Shown here: positions 11,330-21,819 of the stretch, in pieces | How the letters are laid out: each line of letters starts with the position of its first letter | Numbering within the stretch: the stretch's first letter is position 1 | Assembly (NCBI GenBank): GCA_020850325.1 | Contig: JADZEW010000026.1 | Coordinates: 186,001-250,000, forward strand | Direction of reading: 5' to 3' | Length of the DNA stretch: 64,000 nucleotides | Origin: Methanoregulaceae archaeon | Lineage (GTDB): Bacteria > Armatimonadota > Fimbriimonadia > Fimbriimonadales > Fimbriimonadaceae | Program-made: the position numbers and the translations under genes | The notes under the pieces: model-generated | The model's input: only the letters and a program-made list of their open reading frames with translations | What the model was told of the DNA's origin: nothing | Databases searched by the model: none

Positions 11330-12553
11330 CTAAGGACTCTGGGCCCAGCGAAGTTGATATCCGTACTTCCAGTTCTGAGGAATCATGCGGTCGCTGCTGT
11401 TGGCGAGCGGGTTCAAGGTCGCATACGCGGCGATCTGCTGCTCGGGGGAACCCACATGAATGTTCTCCATCATGCGACCGACGCGGTGCGTGCCCAGCAT
11501 CGCCAGCTCAAACTTGGTGAACCGCGCTTCCTTGGTGTCGTAGTCTGCCAAGGCGAGCAGACGCCCCTTATACGTGTCTCGACACCATTCGCTGTCCGCG
11601 CGCATGTCGTAATGTGCAGTTATTCGTAGCGAAACCTTGTTGTTTTGAACCGCCACGACCTCCGACTCCATGCTTCCCCCTCGGATGTGGCTCTCCCACC
11701 AGGCGCTCTGTCCGGCCTGCATGTGGCTCAAAAGGACAATCCGGTTGAAGAGCGGCCCGGTGACTGAGGTCTTGGCCCCTGGAGTCAGTTTCGCGGGCAG
11801 CCAACCCCGCCACTCCGACGGCTTGAACCACAACCGATCCAGGTGATAGAACTTCGGATGCCGCTGGTCGAAGGTGGTCATTCCGGGAAAGGCATACCCG
11901 CGGCTCGAGATCCGCAGGTCGAGCGTTCCTGTCGGCTTCTTGAACGCATCCTGCTCCCACTTCAGGCGGTCGGCGTCGGTGAGTGTCCGGCTCAATCGAC
12001 GCTCGGCCGGCGACAGCCGTCGGTACGCGGCCACCGCTTCCTTGAGCGCTTGCAACGTAGCGTCCGCATCGGGATCCGGCCATCCTCGGTTCATCCGGCC
12101 TAAGTAACGGCCGGATGACGAGGCCACATAGATGCCCTGCTGAATCTGGTCGCGCATCAGGGTTGCCAACCACTTGCGCTCGAACCGCTCCCGGTCGGGA
12201 TGCTCGTTATAGTTGACGTCATCCACTGCGACGGGGATGAAATTCTCTCGGGCGTATTCGACGATGTCGGGGCGAGTCCAGACAAACTGCCTGGTTTTGA
12301 CTCCGTTCTGTCAGCAATGCCCTCGCGGATCGCCGAAGTACATCCACATGAGCAGCGGCTTGTCCTCACGCTGCCCGGCCTGCAGACCCTCGTAGATGGT
12401 CGAACGCCAGTCGAGACGCTGGAACGCCAGGTCTTCCGCCATCGGCGAGGCATGAGCCTTGACCGCGGCAAACGTCGCCGCCGTCAACTCGACCGGTGGC
12501 TTACGGTCCGCTCCCTGAACGGGAGCCAAAGCGAGCACCAATGCGAGGATCAT
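11330..12553 (-). CDS. Secreted thioredoxin-like protein with in-frame TGA (candidate selenoprotein)
   Basis: Read through the TGA at 12311-12313, this is a 407-residue exported protein. It has a signal peptide (MILALVLALAPVQGA), a thioredoxin-like domain around residues 60-120, and a long C-terminal region of unknown fold rich in Trp and His. The TGA is codon 81 and directly follows Cys80 (DPRGHC, TGA, QNGVKTRQFVW), at the place where thioredoxin-fold proteins carry the redox motif. The frame continues open to 11330, and strand KPLLMWMYF and strand ENFIPVAVDD of one domain lie on opposite sides of the TGA. A SECIS-like hairpin follows at 12274-12303. TGA is an ordinary stop elsewhere here. 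The start overlaps the upstream stop as ATGA, implying coupling. The alternative is a single nonsense mutation or base error; no sel genes are in the window. Confidence 0.65.
12274..12303 (-). promoter_or_regulatory. SECIS-like hairpin after the in-frame TGA
   Basis: On the minus strand an upper stem CCAGGC/GTCTGG (6 bp, one G-U) closes the 5-nt loop AGTTT. A lower stem GAGT/ACTC follows after a 5-nt bulge. The loop begins 22 nt after the TGA and has G at its second position. As I recall the bacterial SECIS model, it asks for a loop 16-37 nt from UGA with a G in its first two bases; this hairpin fits. A chance match is possible. Confidence 0.45.
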
Positions 12554-13266
12554 GGCAGCGGGCGGAACTCGGCGACGGCGTCGTTCACGGTGAGCTGAGC
12601 CTGCAAGACCTCGGCTTTCATGCGCGGGATACCGGTCAGCAACGTCACCGGAAGCTCGTTCAGGAGTTGCTTGACCTGGTTCCGGTTCAGGGCCAGCATG
12701 TGCTGCAGGGCGCTGATCAGTTCCTCGGTCTTGTGTCCACCGTTCGAGAGCAGCACCAGTTCGTACAAGTTGTCGTCATCACGCCGAGCGAACGCGATGT
12801 GCTTCGGCGTATGGCCGTCCTCGACCGAAATCGGCACCTCCCGGTTGCACCCTTCGCAAAGCAGCACCTCGGTCTTGGCGCTGTAGTAGTTGAGGAAATT
12901 GCAGAAGCCGCAACGAACCTGGCTGATCCCCAGCACTTGCCCATCGGGCGCGATCGGGATCATGCGGTAACAACCCTGGCACGCGAAGTCGTTGTGCGGC
13001 TGCTCGGTCAGTCGGTTCTTGTGCTGACAGTACGGGCACACAACCGCCACATTCGCGACCTTCTTGATCTGGGTGGCCTCGTAAATCGCATAGCCGATGC
13101 CAGCCACCCCCGCCAGCGCGAGGACCCCGGCGAGCCCAACGAGTGCGCCATCACCCCGGAAGATGAACAGGATCACCGCGATGGCCAAGGCGATGACGCC
13201 CCCAATCGCCGCCCCGAGGGCCCTCATTCCAAATTGTTCTACGACATCTGAACTTCGTTCAGGCAT
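12550..13266 (-). CDS. Membrane protein with two zinc-ribbon pairs
   Basis: The family is not recognised. The 238-residue product starts with two closely spaced hydrophobic segments (LGAAIGGVIALAIAVILFIF and ALVGLAGVLALAGVAGIGYA). Two rubredoxin-like cysteine knuckle pairs follow, CPYC with CQGC and CGFC with CEGC, so each pair could bind one zinc. The C-terminal half is charged and helical, presumably cytoplasmic. A good Shine-Dalgarno (AAAGGAG) precedes ATG 13266. The stop overlaps the start of the thioredoxin-like gene as ATGA (12550-12553), so the two proteins are probably made together. It follows the anti-sigma gene by about 60 nt and may belong to the same operon. Confidence 0.8.
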   Translation of the reverse strand: MPERSSDVVEQFGMRALGAAIGGVIALAIAVILFIFRGDGALVGLAGVLALAGVAGIGYAIYEATQIKKVANVAVVCPYCQHKNRLTEQPHNDFACQGCYRMIPIAPDGQVLGISQVRCGFCNFLNYYSAKTEVLLCEGCNREVPISVEDGHTPKHIAFARRDDDNLYELVLLSNGGHKTEELISALQHMLALNRNQVKQLLNELPVTLLTGIPRMKAEVLQAQLTVNDAVAEFRPLP

Positions 13267-17512: not shown

Positions 17513-17610
17513 CCATAGCCGCCAGATGGGTCGAGAAAGGCATCTCAGGGCGAGCGTAACAACTGCGTTACAACCGCGTTACAACCGGCGGGTTTGACAA
17601 GATCCTCACC

Positions 17611-17616
17611 TATACT
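17611..17616 (+). promoter_or_regulatory. -10 hexamer of a leaderless transcript (secreted Ig-like protein)
   Basis: TATACT is 7 nt (CTTTCCA) before ATG 17624 with no Shine-Dalgarno. A TTGACA at 17594-17599 is only 11 bp away, too close for a standard -35 element. Confidence 0.5.
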
Positions 17617-17623
17617 CTTTCCA

Positions 17624-19732
17624 ATGAAGCACCTTTGTCGTCTTGCTCTGGCATTGATTGGCGCCAGCCTGACCGTTCTGGCAGTGGCGCAACCCATGAT
17701 GTGGTTCCACGATTACAAGAATCGCGCGAACTCGAAAATCGCAAGGGATTACAGCGGAAGTCTGTATTACGTGTCGGTACAGCCCGCGAACCGGGGTTGG
17801 ACCATGTCGACGGACAAGTTTACGCCGGGCGGGGACAAGGTCTGGTCAAGAGACTTCTTCAACGGACGACCGGAGACGGAGACGTTCCACGTTGCGTCGG
17901 TCACCGCCGACGCGAACCATGTGTTCGCCGTAGCAAACCGTCGGCTGAACGACGAAACAGGCGCCGTCGTGGGTAGCTACCTGGTTGCCCTTCGCGGCAC
18001 GAATGGTAACTATGATCTCAATCACCCGGGTGATGGCGAAGCATTTGCGAGTGTTGCGGTTTCGAGCAACCATCTCGCCCTACTGTCGCAGAATCTGGCG
18101 ACGGGGGTCGCAAACGTCACCTTCTTCCAGACGGGCACTTGGACCAACATGGGGACGGTCAATCTGGGTGTCGTGGCCAGCGTCGTAGAGGTCAAGCTCG
18201 ACGTAGCCGGCAATGCCTATGTCGCGGCAAACAACACCAATGGCACGGTGCAAATCTCAAAGTGTTCAGCGGCGGGAGGCATTGCGTACCAGACGACCCT
18301 CGACGCGCCAAGTCCGCGGGTGAATGAGAAGTTGGTTCGCCTAGAAGTCGACACCGTCGCGGGGAGAGCCTATGCGATGGGCACGGTCGCCTATTCGCCG
18401 ACCGACCAAGACGTGATGCTCTATGTGGTGAACTCGGCCACCGGTGCCCAAGTTGGCATCCAGAGCGTCCGATCATCCAACACCGACGATATGGTCGGAG
18501 ACCTGAGCATCGTTCCCGGAAGTGGCGGCGTCATTGCGAGTGCTTACACGCCGTCTTCGGAGACGACGGTGGTGGCTCGTCGATCGACGTCGTCGGCTTC
18601 TGTCTGGAGCAAGACCCTTACGGAAACCCCCGCCGGGGCCGGTCGCTCGCATGGTACGGACGCTGATGGACAACTTGTGGTTATGAGTCCCATCTCAAAC
18701 ACCTCCGTTGCGATGGACCGCATCGATCGGGTGACGGGCGCAACGCTCGGTCGCGAGACGTTCTCGCTGTTGAACGATGCCAAGGCACGTCAGTTGATCA
18801 CGTCCTCAGGTTCGTACTTTGTGAGCTCAGAGCATCGAACGTACGTCCCGCAGGCCTGGGTAGCGCGGTTTCAACGGCTGCAATCGTCGCGCTTAAGCTT
18901 CACCCAAAACAACCGTCCCGGAGGCGAGACCGTCTTCGGTCGGATCCATCGATTCCCAACAACCACCGTGGAAGAGGCCTGGAGCGCGACGAGCAGCAAT
19001 CCAGCCGTGGCCTCCGTGCCTGCGACGGTCAACGTTCCCATCGGTGTCCAGACCTTCAACTTTCCGATTGTCCTGTCGCCGGTGTCGGTGAACACGAACG
19101 TGAGCATCAACATTCGCTTTGCCGGATTTGCCGATCAACAAACGCTAACGGTCATCCCCCCGGTGATCTGGCGGCTTCGCGCAATCCCACACGTTGTTGT
19201 CGGAGGTACCCCGACTGTCGCCCTTACTGAAATCGTTGGTGACGCCCCGGCGGGCGGACTGACCGTTGTTCTTTCGAGCAACAAGCCGGCAGTGGCGTCG
19301 GTCCCAGGAACTGGGGTTGTACCCGCGGGCGCTGACTTTGCCGAGTTCCCGGTCACGACCTACGGCGTGAACTCGAATCAAGGGGTGGTGCTCTCCGCCA
19401 CGACAGGTTCGGTGACGAAGACGGCCTTCATGGCGGTGAACGCTCCCTCGCTCACCAGCATCGCGGTGACCCCGGGGTCGCTTAAGGGCGGGGTGATCGG
19501 CACCCTAACGCTCAACCTCAACGGCATTGCGCCGACCGGCGGATTTAGCATCCTGCTGTTCTCGGGACTGCCCGCCACCGTAACGTTGCCCGCATCGGCT
19601 AGCGTTGCGGCTGGGCAAACCACGCGGAACATCTCGATGCCAACGGCCGCAGTAACGGCCACGACGCAAGTGACGATCTTTGCCACGCGCAGCGGCATCT
19701 ACAAGACTGCGACCGTTACGGTGACGCCATGA
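17624..19732 (+). CDS. Secreted protein with N-terminal propeller-like region and C-terminal Ig-like repeats (paralog 1)
   Basis: An exported protein of 702 residues with signal peptide MKHLCRLALALIGASLTVLA then VAQ. Residues 25-400 contain repeated short motifs of the type GSLYYVSVQP, NHVFAVANRRL and GNAYVAANNTNG, resembling blades of a beta-propeller. The C-terminal 280 residues contain repeated Ig-like modules built on NKPAVASVPGTGVVPAGADF, FPVTTYGVNSNQGVV and SLTSIAVTPGSLKGGVIGTL. There is no PEP-CTERM tail and no second membrane anchor, so it is probably released or surface-associated. The next gene overlaps by 4 bp (ATGA) and encodes a paralog with the same architecture. I know of no assigned function. 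Confidence 0.8.
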   Translation: MKHLCRLALALIGASLTVLAVAQPMMWFHDYKNRANSKIARDYSGSLYYVSVQPANRGWTMSTDKFTPGGDKVWSRDFFNGRPETETFHVASVTADANHVFAVANRRLNDETGAVVGSYLVALRGTNGNYDLNHPGDGEAFASVAVSSNHLALLSQNLATGVANVTFFQTGTWTNMGTVNLGVVASVVEVKLDVAGNAYVAANNTNGTVQISKCSAAGGIAYQTTLDAPSPRVNEKLVRLEVDTVAGRAYAMGTVAYSPTDQDVMLYVVNSATGAQVGIQSVRSSNTDDMVGDLSIVPGSGGVIASAYTPSSETTVVARRSTSSASVWSKTLTETPAGAGRSHGTDADGQLVVMSPISNTSVAMDRIDRVTGATLGRETFSLLNDAKARQLITSSGSYFVSSEHRTYVPQAWVARFQRLQSSRLSFTQNNRPGGETVFGRIHRFPTTTVEEAWSATSSNPAVASVPATVNVPIGVQTFNFPIVLSPVSVNTNVSINIRFAGFADQQTLTVIPPVIWRLRAIPHVVVGGTPTVALTEIVGDAPAGGLTVVLSSNKPAVASVPGTGVVPAGADFAEFPVTTYGVNSNQGVVLSATTGSVTKTAFMAVNAPSLTSIAVTPGSLKGGVIGTLTLNLNGIAPTGGFSILLFSGLPATVTLPASASVAAGQTTRNISMPTAAVTATTQVTIFATRSGIYKTATVTVTP

Positions 19733-21819
19733 AAACCCAAGGTACTACCATGCATAAACTCGTTCTGACCATCATCGCCCTTGTAGCTTCGGCCATCTCC
19801 TCGGCCCTGCCGACGGTTTGGAGTCACTATTACGACTATGCCAGAGGTGGCAAGTTGATTCGCGACGCAAGTTCTAATCTTTACTTCGTGCGATCGGTAC
19901 CGACGTCCACCGGGCGAAGCTATGTCATCGAGAAGTTCAACGCCGCCGGCGTGAAGATCTGGGAGAACACAGTCTGGGAGAATGGGCCGCTGGGCCTCCA
20001 ATTCGAAATCAAGCAACTGGCCGTTACGGCGACCGACCTGTATGTGCTCAGCCAAGTCCGGCATGAGGGGGGCACGGGAGACGCGAATCAGAGCTGGATT
20101 CGACGCCATCCGCTGAACTCCGGCCATACGTTTGGATCCTACGGAATCTTCTATGAGAACTTCGAGTCAATGGATCTTAACGAGTCGGAGGTCGTCGTCC
20201 ACGGTCGAAAACCAGAAACAGGTGAATCCTATATCTCATACTCCGGCCTGGATCTGACCGCACCCAACCGTGTTTACCTTGGGCCCACCGAACAAGCAGG
20301 GGTTGTCAAGATTGATCCTTCAGGGTTGACGTACGTGGCGACGACGCACCACGATCGTTTGAAGATATCGAAGTGCACTCGGATGGGCGGATTGCTGCAG
20401 CAGACCGAGCTCAACTCAACGAGCCACTATGGAGAAGACGCGTTAGCCCTCCAGATTGACCCGGCCGCGAATCGTGCCTACGTGTTGATGCGGGGTGCCT
20501 ACGGCCCCACCGACACGGATGTCATGATCTATTACGTCAACCTTGCGACGCTTGCGCTGGCCGGCACCTATTCGGTGAGCAACACGGTGACCTCGGAGTG
20601 GGAAGCCGAACTCACCCTGCTGCCCAATGCGGGAGTCATTGCGAGCGCCGTGCTTTCTGGGCAGAACCAGACTCGGGTCATCCGGAGGAACACGACTGGA
20701 GGACTGGTCTGGGACAAGCTCTTTGTTGTGCCGTTCTCAAACGAGCGACACGTCCACGCGATCGGGCCTGATGGCAGCTTTCATATCGTGAGCTACCACC
20801 ACAATGCCCCCAACGTCTTCTATCGATTTAACGCGAGCACAGGAGCCAGCATGGGGCAACTAACGATGAGCTTTCAGTCGTTCCGGCCGCAAGACGTGTT
20901 CATCGACGCCGCAGGCAACTTCTTCGCAAACTTTGACACCGTGAATGGCGCAATGATCATGAGGATACAGCCTGCCCAACTGTCGTTCTCTGCCAACAAC
21001 CTCGCCGGAGGCGTGGCTGCGAACGGGATCATTACGCTAAGTGAACCATCCGCGGTCAACCAAGTTTGGACCGTCGCCAGTTCGAATGCAAGCTTGGTCG
21101 GGGTCCCCGCGACGGTTACCTTGACGGCGGGCAACACAACCGCGAGTTTCCCGCTGACTGTCGGCTCCGTCACGGCGATCACGAGCGTTAGCATTAATGT
21201 CCGCCACAGCGGGTTCATCTCTCAACAGAACTTGACGCTCGTGCCATCGATGATCCAATCACTGTCGATCTCGCCCAACGTTGTCGTTGGGGGCGTTGCT
21301 ACAACCGGTACGGCCACGCTCTCGGGAACCGCGCCAGCGGGTGGGCGGCTGGTCAATCTCACGAGCAACAAGACGAATGTGGCTACCGTTCCCGCAACAA
21401 GAACCGTTGCGGCAGGTGCGACGGCGGTGACCTTCCCCGTCACAACGTTTGGAGTCAACACGAATCAGGGCGTGGTCATTACGGCAACGACGGGCACGGT
21501 GTCGAAGACGGCATTCTTCGCGGTGAACGCGCCCTCACTGACGTCGATCTCGCTAAACCCGACGACCCTCAGGGGTGGCGTGACAGGATCGCTCACGCTG
21601 AACATCAGTGGGGTTGCCCCTCTCGGCGGGTTCTCGATCGTCCTGTTCTCCGGAGCGCCGGGCATGGTGTTTCTGCCCGCCGCGGCATCCGTTACTGCCG
21701 GGCTGACAAGCCGAACGATCAGCGTGCCTACGGCCGCAGTGACGTCCACCGCGGCTGTGACTGTCTTCGCGACCCGCAGCGGCATTTACCGGACTGCCAC
21801 ACTGACAGTTACACCTTAG
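19729..21819 (+). CDS. Secreted protein with propeller-like region and Ig-like repeats (paralog 2)
   Basis: This is the tandem paralog of the preceding gene, 696 residues, translated from the overlapping ATGA. The signal peptide begins near MHKLVLTIIALVASAISSAL, so an internal ATG at 19750 is also possible. The N-terminal half again carries short propeller-like repeats (SNLYFVRSVPTSTGRSYVIE, SGLTYVATTHHDRLKISKCT). The C-terminal modules (VVVGGVATTGTATLSGTAPA, NAPSLTSISLNPTTLRGGVT) align closely with paralog 1, and the last 90 residues are the most similar. The N-terminal halves have diverged more, which would fit different binding partners on a shared stalk. It ends 81 nt before the convergent EpsI gene. 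Confidence 0.8.
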   Translation: MKTQGTTMHKLVLTIIALVASAISSALPTVWSHYYDYARGGKLIRDASSNLYFVRSVPTSTGRSYVIEKFNAAGVKIWENTVWENGPLGLQFEIKQLAVTATDLYVLSQVRHEGGTGDANQSWIRRHPLNSGHTFGSYGIFYENFESMDLNESEVVVHGRKPETGESYISYSGLDLTAPNRVYLGPTEQAGVVKIDPSGLTYVATTHHDRLKISKCTRMGGLLQQTELNSTSHYGEDALALQIDPAANRAYVLMRGAYGPTDTDVMIYYVNLATLALAGTYSVSNTVTSEWEAELTLLPNAGVIASAVLSGQNQTRVIRRNTTGGLVWDKLFVVPFSNERHVHAIGPDGSFHIVSYHHNAPNVFYRFNASTGASMGQLTMSFQSFRPQDVFIDAAGNFFANFDTVNGAMIMRIQPAQLSFSANNLAGGVAANGIITLSEPSAVNQVWTVASSNASLVGVPATVTLTAGNTTASFPLTVGSVTAITSVSINVRHSGFISQQNLTLVPSMIQSLSISPNVVVGGVATTGTATLSGTAPAGGRLVNLTSNKTNVATVPATRTVAAGATAVTFPVTTFGVNTNQGVVITATTGTVSKTAFFAVNAPSLTSISLNPTTLRGGVTGSLTLNISGVAPLGGFSIVLFSGAPGMVFLPAAASVTAGLTSRTISVPTAAVTSTAAVTVFATRSGIYRTATLTVTP

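Follow-up and report, generated by a model that had tools for sequence, protein, structure and literature searches.

Gene layout at the locus

The stretch of DNA studied here, the window, is 64,000 nucleotides of contig JADZEW010000026.1 (assembly GCA_020850325.1, positions 186,001 to 250,000), and its GTDB lineage is Fimbriimonadaceae in the phylum Armatimonadota. On the minus strand, as are all features described in this section, lies a gene for a protein of 407 amino acids (11330..12553, start ATG, stop TAG) that contains one in-frame UGA. This UGA is very probably read as selenocysteine (Sec), which makes the product a predicted selenoprotein, and the full-length homologues likewise have one TGA.

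The UGA is codon 81 (12311..12313). It comes immediately after Cys80 (12314..12316), the likely resolving residue beside Sec81, in the motif GDPRGHCUQNG, and is followed by 326 open codons in the same frame. An open run of that length past a frame ended by TGA is rare in the window (2 of 219, median 30), but taken alone it is not decisive for readthrough. The hydrophobic N-terminus, approximately residues 1-15 (12509..12553), was read from the sequence by eye as a likely signal peptide, and the homologues, too, have hydrophobic stretches at their starts. The thioredoxin-fold domain covers approximately residues 45-180 (12014..12421), and a beta-rich domain without a family name approximately residues 207-383 (11405..11935). 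A hairpin resembling a selenocysteine insertion sequence (SECIS), with the core CCAGGC-AGUUU-GUCUGG, is found at 12278..12294; its loop starts 22 nt past the UGA and has G as second base. The codon for Arg88 in its 5' arm (12290..12292) is AGG, the only AGR among the 31 arginine codons of the gene. Upstream is a gene for a zinc-ribbon protein (12550..13266), the stop of which overlaps the start of the selenoprotein gene (ATGA). A first-pass annotation, made from the letters of this DNA, had described the single internal TGA in the frame 12553-11330 directly after Cys80, the open codons beyond it and the ATGA overlap, and all of these were found as described.

Conservation of the UGA

Homologues were searched for among 151 related genomes, and a family profile was run against 291 genomes of the phylum Armatimonadota. 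The protein was found in 43 of the 151 genomes, with exactly one TGA in nearly all strong matches, and the profile matched in 67 of the 291. Among the loci read, 66 distinct loci in 42 Armatimonadota genomes have TGA at the same alignment column, where neither TAA nor TAG was ever seen. In one genome, G156, there are four matches of nearly full length, each with one TGA. A second UGA-bearing paralogue, about 31% identical and with the residues CxU, is present in the source genome itself (L052, G000:C8:159514-160674). No relatives were found in the phage, plasmid and viral collections.

Separate genomes have the same TGA at 95%, 71%, 60% and 50% protein identity, which removes a base-call error or a recent nonsense mutation without any need for the reads. 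Such a mutation, a pseudogene or a sequencing error at 12311-12313 would also leave one gene with a lone in-frame TGA, and mutation or base-call error was the competing explanation in the first-pass annotation. With this TGA in 66 loci, always as TGA, and a ratio of nonsynonymous to synonymous substitutions (dN/dS) of 0.034 downstream of it, however, this explanation is refuted and keeps next to no probability. The ratio upstream of the UGA, against the same 95%-identical relative, is 0.081, and purifying selection thus acts on both sides.

A second explanation is that the UGA is a true terminator, giving a product of 80 residues, and that the downstream frame is a separate gene; an open reading frame of 298 amino acids does begin at a GTG at 12226. 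Conservation is however unbroken across the UGA (HCUQNGVKTRQFVW), including the codons between the UGA and any start, and the thioredoxin fold spans the UGA in the structural model, in line with the earlier suggestion that parts of one domain lie on both sides of it. Furthermore, the five homologues without the UGA are all continuous single frames. It is hard to see a terminator here, and we give it very little weight.

The residues that replace Sec had been proposed as a way to tell a selenoprotein from a mutated gene. One of the five homologues without UGA has Cys at the column (L076 in G094, GQPSCDDCNAP). The other four are degenerate copies with Ser or Asp (L068, L081, L083 and L086), which have also lost the upstream Cys; three of their genomes (G024, G035 and G045) are without selA and one (G006) has it. 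In a quick tree, to be read with caution because of long branches, these four copies form one clade and the proteins with the vicinal CU a single clade of ten. In the clade of the window protein the motif reads GDPRGHCUQNG, and elsewhere mostly NGHPxGCTUNNG.

Selenocysteine machinery and hairpin

The source genome is a draft of 3.5 Mb, 98% complete. A Fimbriimonadaceae MAG is the nearest relative with a name, and by this the genome belongs to Armatimonadota. The four components that the first-pass annotation had named for a check were all present: a tRNA-Sec with anticodon UCA (67 bits), selA (469 bits), selB (346 bits) and selD (351 bits). Neither selA nor selB has an internal TGA. The selD gene (L090, G000:C10:34730-35632) has one in-frame TGA, in SCAGUASKLG, and the selenophosphate synthetase of this genome is predicted to be a selenoprotein itself; SelD is a known selenoprotein family. 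Across the 151 genomes selA is present in 86. It occurs in 36 of 37 genomes with a UGA-bearing member, as compared to 50 of 114 genomes that have none (Fisher p 6e-10, with no correction for relatedness), and the sole genome with a UGA member and no selA, G102, is 73% complete.

For the hairpin, the best structure of SECIS type at each of the 66 loci was compared under a simple model with synonymous recodings of the same peptide. The hairpin of the window gene was stronger than its recodings (p about 0.003). Over all loci the mean z at the UGA was -2.40, and -2.48 in a second run, while elsewhere in these genes, at 27 positions, it ranged from -0.68 to 0.31. Not every locus is significant singly, and as the loci are not independent a combined p-value is not read as a probability. 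The hairpin is specific to the UGA position, and the loop distance and loop base given for it in the first-pass annotation are right. Covariation in the window-type hairpin is weak, as there is no variation at most of the stem pairs. The hairpin appears to fit the bacterial SECIS model as published.

The DNA requires only readthrough, and the one homologue with Cys at the column would also fit an ordinary amino acid at the UGA, through a reassigned code, a suppressor tRNA or insertion of Cys. The neighbouring genes have no internal TGA and some of them terminate normally at TGA, which implies that the genetic code is standard, and the uninterrupted selA and selB frames agree with this. The UGA members are moreover accompanied by selA and by the UGA-specific hairpin. 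Decoding as an ordinary amino acid is therefore very unlikely.

Fold and active site

A search of the PDB with the window protein by itself gave no match, and the family profile was needed. It matched 3f9u (E 4e-5), the C-terminal domain of an exported cytochrome c biogenesis-related protein. In the alignment the first Cys of CVNC falls on Sec and the second on Gly84. The Pfam family Thioredoxin_7 matched below threshold, at 18.1 bits as compared to a cut-off of 27. In the full-length AlphaFold2 model the N-terminal part was poor, with a mean predicted local distance difference test score (pLDDT) of 54, and for this reason a separate model was made of residues 18-185. It is of moderate quality (mean pLDDT 69), superimposes on 3f9u with Z 12.7 and a root mean square deviation of 2.6 over 114 residues, and also matches AGR3, AGR2, DsbH and DsbD-gamma. 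On this model the N-terminal domain is a thioredoxin fold, with DsbD-gamma and DsbH as its predicted nearest relatives. Residues 207-383 are a confident beta-rich domain whose structure matches many barrels, none distinctive, and at Z scores of 6.8 or less these matches are not taken as a sign of homology.

The CxxC or UxxC pair is absent from the family. It has UxxG instead, with a Cys at position -1 (11 of 66 loci) or -2 (52 of 66) relative to Sec. A Sec at the nucleophile position of thioredoxin, together with an upstream Cys in 63 of 66 members, suggests attack by the selenol and resolution by the upstream Cys. The first-pass annotation had called a vicinal Cys-Sec pair unusual. This is true only in part, since CU is listed for several other bacterial selenoproteins (PMC13188914). 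Within the family most homologues have Cys-Thr-Sec, and CU is typical of the window clade only.

Proposed mechanism

In the mechanism that we propose, SelB and Sec-tRNA(Sec) would decode the UGA at codon 81, aided by the hairpin just downstream. The product would be a 407-residue, probably exported protein with a thioredoxin-fold domain followed by the beta-rich domain. Sec81 would occupy the position of the nucleophilic Cys in CxxC, the second Cys being replaced by Gly84, and Cys80 would most likely resolve the selenenyl intermediate through a Cys-Sec selenenylsulfide. The protein would probably catalyse thiol/selenol-disulfide exchange, and may thereby reduce disulfides or oxidised thiols outside the cytoplasm. 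Export, the Cys-Sec pairing, the reductase direction and the substrate are what we infer here; the protein is probably exported, judging from the hydrophobic N-termini alone. A known case for comparison is human SELENOF, which has CxU in a thioredoxin-like domain and behaves as a disulfide reductase, -256 mV (PMC9304195).

We somewhat favour a role as disulfide reductase. The protein may instead be a selenoprotein of another kind, a peroxidase, a selenium carrier or a metal-binding protein, as Gly stands in place of the second Cys of CxxC, some members lack the upstream Cys, and CU is also seen in selenoproteins related to metals and mercury (PMC13188914). The fold, nearest to oxidoreductases of the DsbD-gamma, DsbH and AGR type, speaks against such a function, which we consider possible and less likely than the reductase role.

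Some points weigh against the selenoprotein reading and its proposed chemistry. The selenoprotein is a prediction from computation, which shows the conserved UGA, the complete Sec machinery, the UGA-specific SECIS-type hairpin and the fold. One paralogous clade, in which GVRGRQLVW follows the UGA, has weak hairpins under the simple model (L035, p 0.41; L063, p 0.77). The AlphaFold2 models were built from five sequences and predict the active-site loop poorly. Three of the 66 loci lack the upstream Cys, so that Cys-Sec pairing is not universal. Neighbourhood clustering gave no gene neighbour common to the family that would point to a substrate, and the zinc-ribbon gene was not found as a common neighbour of the more distant homologues.

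Relation to known families

No NCBIfam model scored above its cut-off in a scan of 30 members. Among the NCBIfam selenoprotein models only the VPGUxxT (seleno)proteins (NF041382 and NF041383) gave a more-than-chance match (best E 5e-4 among the 30 members). They share with the family a thioredoxin-like domain whose active-site region contains Sec; however, the window protein scores 15.4 bits against NF041383, where the cut-off is 275, lacks the VPGUxxT motif and has a different architecture. No members of NF041383 or NF041382 over the cut-off were found in 41 related genomes. Weak matches to NF041383 with one in-frame TGA, possibly further selenoproteins, were seen at G100:C284:3573-3950, G017:C1:712476-712742, G005:C1:197569-198024, G012:C6:197731-198081, G085:C33:1692-1928 and G090:C11:245833-246081.

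The DsbD gamma domain, DsbH and Thioredoxin_7 (3f9u, 2ju5; PF13899) are exported redox proteins of the same fold, in which the first Cys of CxxC aligns with Sec. The family differs from them by Sec for Cys, Gly for the second Cys, the added Cys at -1 or -2, and an extra C-terminal beta domain. Another gene, L088 (G128:C87), is Thioredoxin_7-like with UxxC (NPGUGGCQTMG); it has Sec at the same nucleophile position and keeps the second Cys. Human SELENOF and the Thioredoxin-like selenoprotein Sec.1 (PF13192) have CxU in a thioredoxin-like domain, as most family members do, but their architecture is another, no sequence relationship to them is shown, and the window clade has CU. The Pro-x-Gly-x-x-Sec spacing of the TsoC NEPxGxxU selenoprotein (NF045708) resembles HPxGCTU of the family; none of 30 family members matched its model at E up to 1.

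In themselves, CU and CxU motifs are not new, since other selenoprotein families have them (PMC13188914). Neither the motif of this family nor the phylum appears in the same source, a 2026 inventory that covers 119 families of prokaryotic selenoproteins. In the literature searched, no selenoprotein work on Armatimonadota or Armatimonadetes was found. Of the two papers with text matches to the phylum and selenoproteins together, the one on Planctomycetes cites Armatimonadota for nothing more than unrelated homologues, and the other concerns selenium in the rumen. The family thus appears to be previously unlisted, judged against NCBIfam, Pfam and PMC13188914 only, and a groundwater selenoproteome study (ref. 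66 of that paper) may list it. It is conceivable, as a tentative reading, that this is an unrecognised, lineage-expanded family of exported selenoenzymes, in which the resolving Cys has moved upstream (CxU, and CU in one clade), the second Cys has been lost, and the redox chemistry is one not known from other thioredoxin-fold proteins.

Other genes in the window

On the plus strand there are two overlapping tandem genes (17594-19732 and 19729-21819) for similar proteins of about 700 amino acids. Over 17594-21819 the encoded proteins have signal-like N-termini and repeated segments rich in Thr, Val and Ser near the C-terminus.

Implications

With this finding the selenoprotein families gain a predicted new one, with members in 42 or more Armatimonadota genomes. 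Because standard gene callers take the UGA for a stop and end every member there, the proteins are probably in the databases as two fragments. The family is also a natural series, from CxU and CU to Cys and to redox-dead Ser or Asp copies in lineages that have mostly lost selA, and it lends itself to the questions of what advantage selenium gives a thioredoxin-like protein outside the cytoplasm, and by what route Sec disappears.
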